IMG/VR virus record: IMGVR_UViG_3300008448_000358
Span: 1-32,851 of that record
Origin: a virus
DNA: 32,851 nt
Reading direction: 5' to 3' (one strand)
The notes beneath the pieces were generated by a model. That model was not told where the DNA came from, searched no databases, and saw nothing but the letters and a program-made list of their open reading frames with translations. How positions within the stretch are numbered: position 1 is the stretch's first letter; every line of letters starts with the position of its first letter. Of the stretch, positions 15,868 through 22,384 are shown one piece after another. The position numbers and the translations under genes were made by a program.

Positions 15868-16226
15868 TATACATTCATTTTTAAATGGTATCTGATGTAA
15901 TTTCTCAGTTTATGGTATTGGTTATTCTTGCAACTAATACAATTATCAAATCTAAACTCTTCATTGAATAGTTGTTGATAAACCCCATTAATAAATACTT
16001 TCGCTTCCTCTCTTATTCCATCTCTGTTTACCACCTCGTGATATGCTTTAACAATATCCTCATCATCAAATACGATTAATGGTTCAGGTGTTAAATCAAT
16101 TGTTGGTAGTTCTGTTACCTCGTTGTTCTTCTTCTTACAGGATGTGCAACCTTTCTTCTTCTTTGGAGGATTTTCTATTGCTTCCTGTTTTGCTTTGTTG
16201 AACTTTTCTAATATATCCTCAGTCAT
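15867..16226 (-). CDS. small protein with two CxxC pairs (possible zinc binding)
   Basis: The 119-residue protein has a Lys-rich N-terminal part and Cys pairs at 27/30 (GCTSCKKK) and 96/99 (NCISCKNN). Four such cysteines could bind one zinc ion. The linker is acidic and Pro-rich, and the C-terminus is basic (HKLRNYIRYHLK). No family is recognised. It overlaps the sigma-like gene by 8 bp (ATGACTGA) and the small terminase by 1 bp, so the three are translated as a coupled set. This position suggests a role in late gene control or packaging initiation, but there is no direct evidence. Confidence 0.6.
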   Translation of the reverse strand: MTEDILEKFNKAKQEAIENPPKKKKGCTSCKKKNNEVTELPTIDLTPEPLIVFDDEDIVKAYHEVVNRDGIREEAKVFINGVYQQLFNEEFRFDNCISCKNNQYHKLRNYIRYHLKMNV

Positions 16227-16758
16227 TTTCTTTAAGTTTTTGTATTACGTTTTTCTTAATTGTTTCTTTGCTCTCTTTGATATATTTGATAATGGATGAT
16301 TTTGGTATTTCTGTGTGTTTTGCCACTTTATTTACACTACCTAAACATAAATAGAGTCCTAATAAATTTTTGTGAAACCACGTTAATTCTGAGTACTCTA
16401 GTTCTAATATACTGAATAATTGTTGTTTTTCAAAGGATTTTTGTTCATCTGATGCTTCAAATAAACTATTGGTATTAACGTTAGACATAAAGTCATCATA
16501 CTTGAGAAACTCTCTTCTTATCTTATAGTAGAATGGACTGGTCTTACTTATCCAATTTATTCTGATGATTGAAACGATGTAGTATTTTATACTACTGTCA
16601 TCATAGAATTTAAGTGTGATATGTTCTTTTTGATATAGTTGGATTATTACTTCGTGTAATAAGTCCTGAGTTAAATCGTGATTCTTGGTTATTTTCTTTG
16701 TAATCTTCAATAACTCGTAATAGTTCTTGGTAATGAACTGTTCAACTTCTTTATTCAT
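16219..16758 (-). CDS. phage sigma-70-like (ECF-type) transcription factor
   Basis: The 179-residue protein has the two-domain plan of a small sigma factor. The region 2 helix NHDLTQDLLHEVIIQLYQK (about 27-45) is followed by a Trp-bearing segment (SIIRINWISKT). A C-terminal region 4-like helix-turn-helix is seen in SVNKVAKHTEIPKSSIIKYI (about 139-158). Length matches ECF sigma factors. It should bind host core RNA polymerase and redirect it to phage promoters, most simply those of the structural genes. The similarity is judged by eye and the N-terminal sequence is divergent. It overlaps both neighbours by 8 bp, so its amount is tied to the upstream small gene and to the CxxC gene. Confidence 0.7.
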   Translation of the reverse strand: MNKEVEQFITKNYYELLKITKKITKNHDLTQDLLHEVIIQLYQKEHITLKFYDDSSIKYYIVSIIRINWISKTSPFYYKIRREFLKYDDFMSNVNTNSLFEASDEQKSFEKQQLFSILELEYSELTWFHKNLLGLYLCLGSVNKVAKHTEIPKSSIIKYIKESKETIKKNVIQKLKEND

Positions 16759-18048: not shown

Positions 18049-18633
18049 CTAATTGTTGAGATAAACCTTTAATAATTCTAATTCAACAGGACTATAGCAA
18101 TTATACTTTTCAATAAATTTATCAATACCTAACTTCCAAAATTCTTTCTGCCACTCTGGTATATCAACATAAATTTCATTTAACATTTCTCTTACTTCTT
18201 TTATATCATATTCCATATCTCCTTCTTCCTTCAACATATTACCTTCTTCCTTCTTCATATATCCTTCATCATATATCATATTACATATAACAGGTTGTTT
18301 TGTTTGTTTTTCAACCATTTGGTTGTTTTGTTTGTTTTTGGTTGTTTCTTCTACATCAGTTTTTTTTTGCGCGTTATTGTTTCCAACAGGTGCACCACCT
18401 TTTTTACCAGCTTCTCTTCTCTTCTCAATAGTTCTTTGTCGTTTGGTTTCATTATGATTTAACAATTCAACCACATCATTCCAAACCATCTGGTCAATCC
18501 TCGTTGGTAATTCTATTTCATTACCTTCGGTGTAGTTTATAAGATTGTTGATAAATCTTCTTAGTTCAACATCATCCATTATGTCTATATTTTTTTTCCA
18601 AGATGTGTAGAACAAAAATGTTTTCTTTTCCAT
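18049..18633 (-). CDS. DUF6291-like phage protein (possible replication role)
   Basis: The 194-residue protein is the first gene of the leftward unit. The N-terminal ~90 residues (KTFLFYTSWKKNIDIMDDVE, then EKRREAGKKGGAPVGNNNAQ) match the pattern of DUF6291-type phage proteins: an aromatic start, a small helical domain and a [KR]REAGKKGG basic motif. Some members occur near phage replication genes. The middle (about 90-120) is polar low-complexity. A Glu/Met-rich stretch with two near-copies of M-x-K-E-E-G follows, and the C-terminal ~55 residues are helical. A DNA-binding or replication-organising role is possible. Its leader contains a hairpin followed by T6, so attenuation is conceivable. 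Confidence 0.6.
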   Translation of the reverse strand: MEKKTFLFYTSWKKNIDIMDDVELRRFINNLINYTEGNEIELPTRIDQMVWNDVVELLNHNETKRQRTIEKRREAGKKGGAPVGNNNAQKKTDVEETTKNKQNNQMVEKQTKQPVICNMIYDEGYMKKEEGNMLKEEGDMEYDIKEVREMLNEIYVDIPEWQKEFWKLGIDKFIEKYNCYSPVELELLKVYLNN

Positions 18634-18643
18634 ATTATTGTTT

Positions 18644-18732
18644 AATAAAAAAGGGTCACCAAATACTCACTGTGCTTCACTTCAGCTTTCTTTGGCAACC
18701 CTAAAAATCTTTAATGTCCGTAATGTGAAGCA
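18644..18732 (-). promoter_or_regulatory. structured leader of the leftward unit (hairpin + T6, alternative pairing)
   Basis: On the leftward transcript, GGGTTGCCAAA (18701-18691) can pair with TTTGGTGACCC (18663-18653), apart from a two-base internal mismatch. TTTTTT follows at 18652-18647. A second inverted repeat, TGCTTCAC (18732-18725) with GTGAAGCA (18680-18673), places its distal arm inside the loop of the first hairpin. The two pairings would compete or form a pseudoknot. This could be an attenuator for the DUF6291-like gene (start 18633), or the dyads could be DNA operators. No clear leftward promoter of the TAnnTTTG type was found. Confidence 0.45.
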
Positions 18733-18798
18733 GGACTACTTAGATAAGTATAAGAAATTTTATCAAAAGAAAAAAATCTCAATAAATTTTTTTAAGAA

Positions 18799-18815
18799 TT
18801 TTGGAATTTCCAAAA
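18799..18815. promoter_or_regulatory. perfect 17-bp dyad, putative operator
   Basis: TTTTGGAATTTCCAAAA is a perfect palindrome around a central T. Its left arm contains the TTTG -33 element (18800-18803) of the promoter for the winged-helix gene. A bound protein would block RNA polymerase, which fits autoregulation. A related dyad lies at 19853-19868. Confidence 0.65.
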
Positions 18816-18831
18816 GTTTTGATTATATTTA
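18800..18831 (+). promoter_or_regulatory. Bacteroidota-type promoter for the rightward unit
   Basis: TTTG (18800-18803), a 20-bp spacer and TATATTTA (18824-18831) match the Bacteroidota TTTG-N19-21-TAnnTTTG form except for the last base. Transcription would start about 12 bp before the ATG at 18851. Confidence 0.6.
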
Positions 18832-18850
18832 TATTATAAACAAATTTATT

Positions 18851-19309
18851 ATGGCAATACAAATCAAATCTTATTACAAGACAACTCCGATAGCGGAGGA
18901 GATACTAGCAAAGGCTATTGCTGGTGCAAAGGACCAAGAAAACAAAATCTACCAAATATTCAAGAAGTTTGGTTGTATGACAAATTGGGATGTATATGAG
19001 GTGTACAATCAATTAATAGGTCCAATTTTACCTTCTTCTGTTGGAAGGAGTATTGATACCTTAAAGAAACAAAACATCATCTATGGAATCGGCACGATAC
19101 CTGGTGAGAATGGTAGACCAGTTACCTTGTATGAATTAAATAACGTTCTTCCTGAAGTGGTTGATAGAAAGTACAGTAATGAATTACCAAAGTCAATTAA
19201 ATTAGATTTGGTGTTAGACAAAGATGGTAACATTGATACTGAAAAGATTGTGGATAACTTGGATTTGTTATTATCAAAAATTTCTCGTAAATTTAAAATA
19301 GATTATTAA
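18851..19309 (+). CDS. winged-helix DNA-binding protein, putative regulator
   Basis: The 152-residue protein starts at the ATG at 18851 (MAIQIKSYYKTTPIAEEILA). Upstream in-frame codons back to 18638 run through the promoter and are not used. Residues ~30-95 have a winged-helix plan: helices with FKKFGCMTNWDVYEVYNQL, a recognition region (PSSVGRSIDTLKKQNIIYGI) and a beta-wing (PGENGRPVTLYELN). The C-terminal ~50 residues are acidic and helical and may dimerise. It is the first rightward gene, directly behind a promoter overlapped by a perfect 17-bp dyad, so it is a good candidate for an autoregulated repressor or early regulator. A replication-initiator winged helix is an alternative. Confidence 0.75.
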   Translation: MAIQIKSYYKTTPIAEEILAKAIAGAKDQENKIYQIFKKFGCMTNWDVYEVYNQLIGPILPSSVGRSIDTLKKQNIIYGIGTIPGENGRPVTLYELNNVLPEVVDRKYSNELPKSIKLDLVLDKDGNIDTEKIVDNLDLLLSKISRKFKIDY

Positions 19310-19327
19310 TCATTAAACACAAACAAA

Positions 19328-19549
19328 ATGGCAGACTTTCAAAAAAATCAAGGAAGCATCGAAAGACAATCAACTTTGAAAATGGTTGTAGAATATTGTA
19401 GAATGATTGGGACACCAATGACACTTCAAGAAATTGTGGGTATCACAAATGTTCTTGTAGATTATTGTCAATCTGGTTACAGTAAACAAATTGGTGAGAG
19501 ATTGCAGAAGATAGACAAACACATCTCTTCCAAATTTGAAGAATCTTAA
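19328..19549 (+). CDS. hypothetical 73-residue protein
   Basis: The protein starts MADFQKNQGSIERQSTLKMV and ends HISSKFEES. It is largely helical, with a central TPMTLQEIVGITNVLVDYCQ segment that could be a small DNA-binding or dimer helix pair, but no family is recognised. It lies 18 bp after the winged-helix gene in the same transcript, with the A-rich start context ACAAACAAA. A strong terminator follows 28 bp downstream, so these two genes form a complete early unit. Confidence 0.65.
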   Translation: MADFQKNQGSIERQSTLKMVVEYCRMIGTPMTLQEIVGITNVLVDYCQSGYSKQIGERLQKIDKHISSKFEES

Positions 19550-19576
19550 ATTCCTGTTTATCTATATATATGAATT

Positions 19577-19606
19577 GGGTGGAGTGGTGTCCACCCTTTT
19601 CTTTTT
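19577..19606 (+). terminator. rho-independent terminator after the winged-helix operon
   Basis: The arms GGGTGGA (19577-19583) and TCCACCC (19590-19596) form a 7-bp stem with a 6-base loop, followed by TTTTCTTTTT. This is a classical terminator for the two-gene rightward unit. Confidence 0.85.
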
Positions 19607-19625
19607 AATATACATTTCATATATT

Positions 19626-19706
19626 TATATTTGAGGGAAGGTTGGATACTTTTTATACAAATACTGCCATTTATTGTTTCCTTGATTTTCCGCCTTCCCT
19701 TTTTTT
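19626..19706 (+). ncRNA. candidate short transcription unit A (promoter -7 box plus long-range stem and T7)
   Basis: A TATATTTG -7 box at 19626-19633 lacks a clear -33 TTTG (TTTT is at the expected place). It is followed by GGGAAGG (19635-19641) and, 51 bases later, its complement CCTTCCC (19693-19699) with seven or more T. No reading frame of note is present. The first arm lies so close to the expected start point that the RNA may carry only part of it. It may be a small RNA, a terminator with a large loop, or chance. Confidence 0.35.
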
Positions 19707-19723
19707 ATTTCAAAATTTTTTCC

Positions 19724-19804
19724 TATATTTGTATTACTATCTTATCTTATAGATACGTAATTCAATCAACGTAACCCCCGACTATTCTTGGTTGGGGGTT
19801 TTTT
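19724..19804 (+). ncRNA. candidate short RNA unit B (promoter plus terminator)
   Basis: A TATATTTG -7 box (19724-19731) would start transcription near 19738. A strong hairpin follows: AACCCCCGAC (19773-19782) pairs with GTTGGGGGTT (19791-19800), a 10-bp stem with one G-T pair, and a T-run follows. The implied RNA is about 65 bases and ends before the next gene's own promoter at 19853. The -33 element is weak (TTTT). It could be a small regulatory RNA or just a terminator for read-through from upstream. Confidence 0.4.
19773..19804 (+). terminator. strong hairpin terminator in the 19550-19924 intergenic region
   Basis: A 10-bp stem (AACCCCCGAC/GTTGGGGGTT), an 8-base loop and TTTTTT including the last stem bases isolate the following gene from upstream transcription. 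The hairpin itself is directly visible. Confidence 0.8.
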
Positions 19805-19852
19805 ATTGATTATCAATCAGTTAGAAAAAAATCAAAAAAAAAGTTAAAATTA

Positions 19853-19884
19853 TTTGGAATATTCTAAATCTCGCCGTTACTTTG
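19853..19884 (+). promoter_or_regulatory. promoter with overlapping dyad upstream of the 154-residue gene
   Basis: TTTG (19853-19856), a 20-bp spacer and TTACTTTG (19877-19884) match the TTTG-N20-TAnnTTTG form with one mismatch. The sequence TTTGGAATATTCTAAA (19853-19868) is a palindrome with one mismatched pair. It shares the half-site TTTGGAA and the same register over -33 with the dyad at 18799-18815, so both promoters may answer to one regulator. Confidence 0.6.
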
Positions 19885-19924
19885 TGAAACAAAAACGGGG
19901 ACAGGTATCTGAACATAAAAAGTT

Positions 19925-20389
19925 ATGACACAAGTAAAAACGGATTTAACTCCAGCACAGGTGGTAATTAACACTTATCCTACGTTCACACAAATTTTTG
20001 AACACGCTCTCAAAAAGATTAGTAATCTGAAAGGTCATATGACACACAGATTTTATACGACTTTACCTGAAGAATATCGTTGGGAAGCGGTAAGTGATTT
20101 AATTGATTTGATTGTAGAACCAAGTCTTGGAAGACCATTCCATAAAACTTATGGTATTAAGGTTAATAAGAAAACAGGTTTCTCATCACAGTTACATAAT
20201 TCTGCTAAAGTTTATGATTGTAATGGTCAAATTAAACAAGTTGATGGTGACCAATTTTTAGCATTATTAAAAATTATGTCTTACAGTTGGTTAGCTATGT
20301 ATAATGATTTTCCTTATACTGATGAAATGGATGAAGCTCAAAGTAATTTCAAAGGTTCAGATTTTAAAATTTATCAAATTTTAGATTAA
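19925..20389 (+). CDS. hypothetical 154-residue early protein
   Basis: The protein starts MTQVKTDLTPAQVVINTYPT in the AAAAGTTATG context. It has helical segments and a polar middle with KVNKKTGFSSQLHNSAKVYD. There is no catalytic motif, cysteine cluster or membrane segment, and I do not recognise the family. It heads the second rightward unit, behind the dyad-covered promoter at 19853-19884, and is followed after 5 bp by the 82-residue gene. Co-occurrence with the AAA+ gene suggests a part in early DNA metabolism or host takeover, by context only. Confidence 0.65.
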   Translation: MTQVKTDLTPAQVVINTYPTFTQIFEHALKKISNLKGHMTHRFYTTLPEEYRWEAVSDLIDLIVEPSLGRPFHKTYGIKVNKKTGFSSQLHNSAKVYDCNGQIKQVDGDQFLALLKIMSYSWLAMYNDFPYTDEMDEAQSNFKGSDFKIYQILD

Positions 20390-21553: not shown

Positions 21554-22384
21554 GTGCCAGCAGGATTTAGAAAAGTTTATCAATATGATTTAGATGGTAA
21601 CTTTGTTGCTGAATATGAGAATATCAGTGCAGCTTCTTTTTTTATGAAAGAAAAAGCACAAAGCTTATATTTTTGTCTAAATGGAAAATATAATTTTAGT
21701 AGAGGTTTTTTTTGGTCTTTCAATTACCATATAAAATTATCTAATGAAATTTTAAATAAAATTAGAAAAAGTAAAAGTTATAAAACTTTAATTTTAAACA
21801 ATTGTAAAATATATCAATATGATTTAGATGGTAACTTTGTTGCTGAATATGATAATATTAATGTGGTCTCTAATGATGTTATCGTTAGAATGAATATAAA
21901 AAGAATTTTAGAAGGTAGATATAAAACTTCAGACAGTTACATTTGGAAAACACAATTTTTCAAAAAATTACCAAAAGAAATTCTAAATTTACATCATAGA
22001 ACAAATAAAATAGAAGTATATGTATATGACATTAATGGTAATTTTATAAAAAAATTCAATAATTTAAAAGATGTATCTGATGAATTTAAAATTAATAGAG
22101 GCACTGTTTCAAATTTATTAAACGGCATTCGTCAAAAACAATATAAAAATTATATTTTTAGAAGAGAGTATTATAAGAAATTACCAAAAGAAATTTTAAA
22201 TCAACATATTGATATTAGATTTAAAGAAATTATTCAATTTGATTTAAATGGTAAATTTATTAAAGAGTGGTCATCATTAAAAGAAATTAGAAAAAAATAT
22301 AATAATTCAAATATCGCCAGTGTTTTAACTGGTAATAGAAATAATGCTTCTGGTTTTATTTGGAAATATAAAGATAATGTTTAG
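21554..22384 (+). CDS. tandem NUMOD1-repeat protein without nuclease domain
   Basis: The 276-residue protein starts at GTG (21554), 5 bp after the AAA+ gene. It is made of four NUMOD1-like units at about 8-55, 86-132, 155-203 and 226-272. Each has a [VI]-x-x-[YF]-D-[LI]-[DN]-G-[NK]-F strand pair, a helix-turn-helix, then a LxGxR/K turn and a Y-I-W-K or F-I-W-K ending. Linkers carry a repeated KKLPKEILN. NUMOD1 modules normally confer DNA binding on HNH or GIY-YIG homing nucleases, but no nuclease motif is present. It may be a stand-alone DNA-binding protein or the remnant of a homing enzyme. Units 1 and 2 share an exact 41-bp DNA repeat, showing recent duplication. Confidence 0.75.
   Translation: MPAGFRKVYQYDLDGNFVAEYENISAASFFMKEKAQSLYFCLNGKYNFSRGFFWSFNYHIKLSNEILNKIRKSKSYKTLILNNCKIYQYDLDGNFVAEYDNINVVSNDVIVRMNIKRILEGRYKTSDSYIWKTQFFKKLPKEILNLHHRTNKIEVYVYDINGNFIKKFNNLKDVSDEFKINRGTVSNLLNGIRQKQYKNYIFRREYYKKLPKEILNQHIDIRFKEIIQFDLNGKFIKEWSSLKEIRKKYNNSNIASVLTGNRNNASGFIWKYKDNV
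21578..21618 (+). repeat. 41-bp exact direct repeat, copy 1 (NUMOD1 unit 1)
   Basis: Identical to 21812-21852, exactly 234 bp (78 codons) downstream in the same frame. It encodes the YQYDLDGNFVAEY strand pair. Confidence 0.9.
21812..21852 (+). repeat. 41-bp exact direct repeat, copy 2 (NUMOD1 unit 2)
   Basis: Second copy of the repeat at 21578-21618. The sequence around it has diverged, so selection or gene conversion may hold the strand pair constant. Confidence 0.9.

Follow-up and report, generated by a model that had tools for sequence, protein, structure and literature searches.

Lysogeny switches of the lambda/P22 type are built on divergent promoters with shared operators, and winged-helix repressors of the PadR/MarR type are dimeric and autoregulate through a palindrome that overlies their promoter. 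Little work has been done on gene timing in phages of the Bacteroidota, and the primary sigma factor of the bacteria that they infect is unusual; a protein/operator pair conserved across a phage group, such as the putative one considered here, would be a useful entry point to this question. The sigma-ABfr promoters of Bacteroidota combine TTTG at -33 with TANNTTTG at -7, according to two reports (PMC6847099, PMC7366714), and the former also lists TAHHTTTG and places transcription starts 4-5 nt past the -7 box.

The window analysed here is a complete IMG/VR record of 32,851 bases, and the contig may be incomplete as a phage genome. Its terminase is of the Flavobacterium phage 11b type, and the nearest named phages by this protein are Flavobacterium phage 11b and Cellulophaga phage phi10:1 (43-45% identity). 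A first-pass annotation had described two rightward promoters, here termed P1 and P2, whose -33 elements are overlaid by related palindromes, and had proposed a phage control switch exerted by the winged-helix protein encoded behind the first. The features of this region are as follows:

18049..18633, minus strand: DUF6291 gene, divergent and leftward, preceding the terminase and structural genes
18799..18815, no strand assigned: P1 dyad TTTTGGAATTTCCAAAA, with the conserved core TTTGGAANTTCCAA at 18800-18813
18800..18831, plus strand: P1 promoter, with the -33 TTTG at 18800-18803, a 20-nt spacer and the -7-like box TATATTTA at 18824-18831
18851..19309, plus strand: gene of the 152-aa winged-helix protein, which falls in phrog_9069 and has no Pfam match; fold predicted with AlphaFold and Foldseek
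19328..19549, plus strand: second gene (gene 2) of the P1 operon, 73 aa, function not assigned, start codon region complementary to the small RNA loop
19577..19596, plus strand: terminator-like hairpin closing the P1 operon
19620..19627, plus strand: putative small RNA promoter, -7-like box TATATTTA
19633..19701, plus strand: predicted small RNA, 69 nt from one stem end to the other, with GAGGGAAGGT/GCCTTCCCTT as the closing stem and GCCAT in the loop at about 19666
19773..19800, plus strand: terminator-like hairpin 5' of P2
19853..19884, plus strand: P2 promoter, with TTTGGAATATTCTAAA at 19853-19868, TTTG at 19853-19856 and the -7-like box TTACTTTG at 19877-19884; its dyad is judged coincidental
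19925..20389, plus strand: P2-driven gene, 154 aa, function not assigned

Several observations concern the surroundings of these features. A minus-strand gene of the late operon (16222-16758) specifies a sigma-factor-like protein (phrog_1740, E 1e-4), and the plus-strand gene at 21554-22384 specifies a NUMOD1-repeat protein that resembles a free-standing homing endonuclease or a remnant of one. In the divergent region, L002, L003, L007 and L004 have in common a conserved element some 90 nt long (CCAACAGGAGTTTACCTGAAGTATAGTAGTTT...), in place of which the window (18640-18790) has other sequence, and a leftward promoter of L161 reads into the equivalent region. A 5' leader motif, GGGGACAG-N4-CTGAACATAAAAG-N2-ATG, is repeated with small variations before different genes, namely at 19893-19924 in the window, at P2 in L005, L007 and L064, and at P1 in L012 and L013. 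Two promoters of L018 (6394 and 6920) contain a GC-rich hairpin in the spacer between the -33 and -7 boxes, for instance TTTGGTGGGGGATGAATAATCCCCTACCTTTA.

Inspection of the two palindromes bore out their description, the P1 dyad being perfect and the P2 dyad containing one mismatched pair, with half-site spacings that differ by one base. Their placement is identical, as TTTG is followed at both promoters by 20 nt and a -7-like box that is one base off TAnnTTTG. The shared half-site TTTGGAA is likewise present at both promoters but carries little weight, since promoters of this phage group usually extend the -33 box to TTTGG[AT]A, with a G after TTTG in 10/14 of them. As lone palindromes, neither P1 nor P2 stands above chance in the AT-rich window: perfect 8-1-8 palindromes occur three times compared with 0.8 in shuffled sequences, and 7-2-7 palindromes with at most one mismatch occur 108 times compared with 83, so that the palindrome at P2 is unremarkable.

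Judged by comparison across phages, P1 is a real conserved element, and its conservation alone rises above chance. The relatives were collected with the 152-aa protein and subsequently with a four-sequence alignment, and were thus selected by the protein and not by the dyad. This search yielded 13 other loci with winged-helix proteins 62-95% identical, or 14 loci including the window, 11 of which are distinct. The sequence TTTGGAA-N-TTCCAA covers the -33 box of the winged-helix gene in 14/14 loci, and the core TTTGGAANTTCCAA occupies the same promoter position, 51-74 nt before the ATG, in all of them. The proposal of the first-pass annotation to look for the dyad beside winged-helix homologues of related phages was accordingly borne out at P1; the dyad at P2 was variable or absent. 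Column conservation was counted over six representatives that are 62-78% identical to each other. Invariant columns amount to 13/14 in the operator, the exception being the centre base, compared with 7/40 upstream, 2/18 just downstream and 33/150 at third codon positions (Fisher p 8e-7 against the upstream columns and p 2e-7 against third codon positions); when the TTTG is left out, 9/10 operator columns are invariant (p 2e-5 against third codon positions). The centre base is T, A or C and both arms are fixed, a pattern as for a two-fold symmetric site. Since the base after the core varies (A/G/T), the right arm does not serve the opposite strand as a -33 box, and divergent back-to-back -33 boxes sharing the dyad were rejected because the right arm ends with CCAAG or CCAAT in about half of the lineages.

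The exact dyad is present as a single copy, at P1, in nearly all of the contigs with a winged-helix gene that were checked. Moreover, several lineages have another gene in the gene 2 position of the operon and the dyad persists there, so the dyad tracks the winged-helix gene; the gene 2 protein is for the same reason disfavoured as the binder. No dyad was found at the equivalent of the P1 promoter in L004 and L005, which are devoid of the winged-helix gene, and in L161, which encodes a distant homologue (E 2.4e-9), the promoter reads TTTGGAAACTCAAA with a changed right arm.

The assignment of a winged-helix protein to the gene directly behind P1 agrees with structure prediction. The AlphaFold model (pLDDT 80) comprises helices at residues 29-40, 45-55 and 61-73, wing strands at 77-84/90-96 and a C-terminal helix at 130-148, a topology of three helices and a wing. 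Foldseek matches in the PDB were mainly winged-helix regulators (ROK, PadR, MarR, Fur) and weak; as the best E value is only 1.6e-3, the winged helix-turn-helix fold is regarded as a prediction only. The protein gave 0 matches in Pfam at E 0.1 and 0 among PDB sequences at E 1, fell outside the PadR and MarR family profiles, and had no relatives in the INPHARED phage records searched by tblastn. Residues 4-96 match phrog_9069 (E 1.1e-8), which offers no mechanistic information since PHROGs gives no function for it.

The site at P1, its position, its near-absolute conservation together with the gene and the prediction of a winged-helix fold are observed, and the P1 dyad is probably the operator of the winged-helix protein, with P2 outside the circuit. 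A homodimer would bind the core TTGGAA-N-TTCCAA over the -33 element and keep RNA polymerase off this region, and would limit transcription of its own two-gene operon by negative autoregulation. A dimer is the natural reading of a two-fold symmetric site, and dimerisation is assumed here; we infer that the binder is the winged-helix protein, that it acts as a dimer and that binding leads to repression. A site over the -33 element could alternatively take a host protein or serve activation. The operator reading of the first-pass annotation is hence retained for P1, where the core is invariant before every homologue, and abandoned for P2. Counterpoints are the occurrence of the exact dyad at other promoters, in Bacteroidales and other phages, and the perfect late-promoter dyads of L005 and L161.

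It is unlikely that both P1 and P2 are operators through which the winged-helix protein coordinates two early promoters, although both dyads overlap the -33 element with a 20-nt spacer. The homologous P2 promoters read TTTGGAATATTCTAAA in the window, TTTGGAATATTCAAAA in L050 and L064, TTTGGATATTCCGAAA in L065 (the contig of L018) and L062 (the contig of L161), and TTTGGAATATATAAAA in L063 (the contig of L005) and L004. A weak tie to the winged-helix gene can be seen in these forms, as P2 is dyad-like in the window, L050 and L018, where the gene is present, and L004 and L005, from which the gene is absent, have a broken right arm and keep TTTGGAATAT but not the dyad. This tie is broken by L062/L161, which has the diverged homologue only and shares the P2 form of L018. 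Furthermore, L009, L010, L011, L013 and L016 encode the protein and have an unrelated promoter without a dyad at the place of P2. Since the homologous forms vary and these five lineages use an unrelated promoter, the P2 dyad is no conserved feature; the gene at the P2-driven position is also not the same among the relatives. With the half-site spacing one base different, the palindrome at chance level and the left half generic for the group, P2 as an operator is disfavoured, and so is the two-promoter switch with a shared operator that had been proposed. P2 is probably an ordinary extended -33 region (TTTGGAATAT...AAA) that is palindromic by coincidence.

Binding of the P1 dyad by a host transcription factor exploited by the phage, instead of by the winged-helix protein, also appears improbable. 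The observations in its favour come from a scan for the dyad combined with a -7 box, which detected 95 loci, mostly in Bacteroidales genomes and with a 20-nt spacer in 73/93 matches, and unrelated T4-like phages that carry the dyad at the portal gene and are devoid of the winged-helix gene. However, the Bacteroidales genes behind the dyad are unrelated housekeeping genes, and Prevotella promoters contain a generic TTTGGTRNTTTCAAA region from which small changes give the dyad. In the T4-like phages, the exact dyad is found in only 7/45 distinct homologous portal upstream regions, a fraction that is if anything high because phages with the dyad served as the seed of this set, and the remaining regions read TTTG[GT][AT]AATWTCAAA and similar. 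The difference from P1 (12/12) is significant (p 7e-8), and the conclusion is little changed when the protein-found distinct haplotypes alone are counted (11/11). The dyad is not common in Flavobacteriaceae either: among about 130 TTTG-N7-CAAA promoters in 80 genomes, only one equals GGAANTTCC, and its genome had been picked as the seed for carrying it. The joint retention of dyad and winged-helix gene at P1 likewise argues against a host factor.

Palindromic-looking extended -33 elements of the form TTTGG[TA]..TTYCAAA were observed in promoters of Prevotella and of Bacteroidota phages. Based on the surveys of T4-like, Flavobacteriaceae and Prevotella promoters, -33 regions of Bacteroidota thus appear to be often quasi-palindromic by themselves and sometimes to drift into the exact dyad; among the promoters compared, the dyad was seen to be held fixed only at P1 of the phages with the winged-helix gene. 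Palindromes over TTTG boxes that arise so easily from the promoter itself are a trap for operator prediction in these genomes. Dyads with 20-nt spacing were also noticed at divergent late promoters, in L011 (TTTGGAATTTTCAAA) and, as the perfect TTTGGAAGTTCCAAA, in L161 and L005, with the -7 box TACCTTTA, or GACCTTTA in L005. They are possibly additional operators or generic -33 drift, and were not counted as support because no winged-helix gene or protein was detectable in L005; the dyad of this phage is compatible with a host factor as well.

A purely promoter-based explanation, in which the P1 dyad is merely an optimal extended -33 element conserved for promoter strength, is rather improbable. 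Such extended elements are indeed common in Bacteroidota promoters, but TTCCAA is absent from the other promoters of the same phages, the orthologous T4-like promoters drift freely, and the -33 motif is weak in F. johnsoniae (PMC6847099). That both dyads are chance palindromes of AT-rich DNA is highly improbable. The near-shuffled palindrome counts of the window suit this reading, which is preferred for P2, but invariance across six diverged clades excludes a chance origin of P1.

The region between the two dyads contains a further element, for which 13 phages were compared (the window at 19620-19709, L050, L009, L028, L011, L013, L016, L018, L019, L005, L004, L161 and L061). Downstream of the P1 operon, all 13 possess a separate -7 box with the sequence TATATTTA or one close to it. 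A helix of 8-16 bp begins 1-7 nt further on (4-7 nt in most), and the loop that it encloses is 38-49 nt long and contains GCCAT. A comparison of the stems sequence by sequence revealed that the stem sequence changes between lineages and the pairing is kept by covariation, the architecture being present in 13/13 phages; shuffled sequences matched the observed helix in at most 1/100. No Rfam family was matched at the gathering threshold, and the only matches were weak and below it. The GCCAT loop shows complementarity to the start region (AUGGC) of the gene that follows the winged-helix gene (19328 in the window). The duplex energy of loop and start was -13.4 kcal/mol for matched phage pairs, compared with -11.3 kcal/mol when the pairs were mismatched (permutation p 1e-4, and 0.007 with nine lineages), a test that overstates independence because related phages share history; the same test with the start of the winged-helix gene gave no effect (p 0.58). 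Compared with all ORF starts of the same locus, gene 2 takes the first rank in 8/13 phages and a rank from second to fourth in the others, with the caveat that genes of these phages commonly begin with ATGGC behind A-rich sequence. A small RNA whose loop pairs with the start of gene 2 is a strong lead; such a phage RNA, if real, would follow the second position of the operon whatever gene occupies it. Another candidate for a short transcript was noted at 19724-19800 on the plus strand, where the perfect -7 box TATATTTG precedes a strong terminator; it is conserved in L002 and L003.

Combining both elements, we tentatively suggest, as a reading somewhat short of even probability, a two-layer module in probably virulent Bacteroidota phages, in which the winged-helix protein would repress the operon from P1 and the small RNA would block translation of gene 2. 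The RNA would start near the predicted transcription start, its ends would be joined by the long covarying stem, and the displayed GCCAT would pair with AUGGC of gene 2, a pairing that would be retained where an unrelated gene replaces gene 2.

The locus shares some features with described systems and differs from them in others. Flavobacterium phage 11b and Cellulophaga phage phi10:1 provide terminase relatives, and a relative of the winged-helix protein was not found in the phage records searched. The regulator gene lies beside a divergent intergenic region, with a putative operator on its promoter, as in lambda/P22-type switches, but the window locus has one operator and not an array. Moreover, neither an integrase nor a CI/Cro-like protein was found among the scanned window proteins and no prophage relative in the scan of genome contigs, so the proposed control switch is not supported as one of the lysogeny type. 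The sigma-ABfr promoters account for both boxes, TTTG and -7, at P1 as well as at P2, but not for the invariant right arm TTCCAA of P1. The PadR/MarR-type repressors differ in that the winged-helix protein shows weak fold similarity and neither Pfam nor PDB sequence matches, and no known member with the putative P1 operator sequence was identified. The likeness to these repressors consists of the predicted fold, a winged helix that includes a recognition helix, a wing of two strands and a helix at the C-terminus, of top PDB fold matches that include PadR, MarR, Fur and ROK, and of a putative palindromic operator, P1, that overlaps the promoter of the regulator's own gene.
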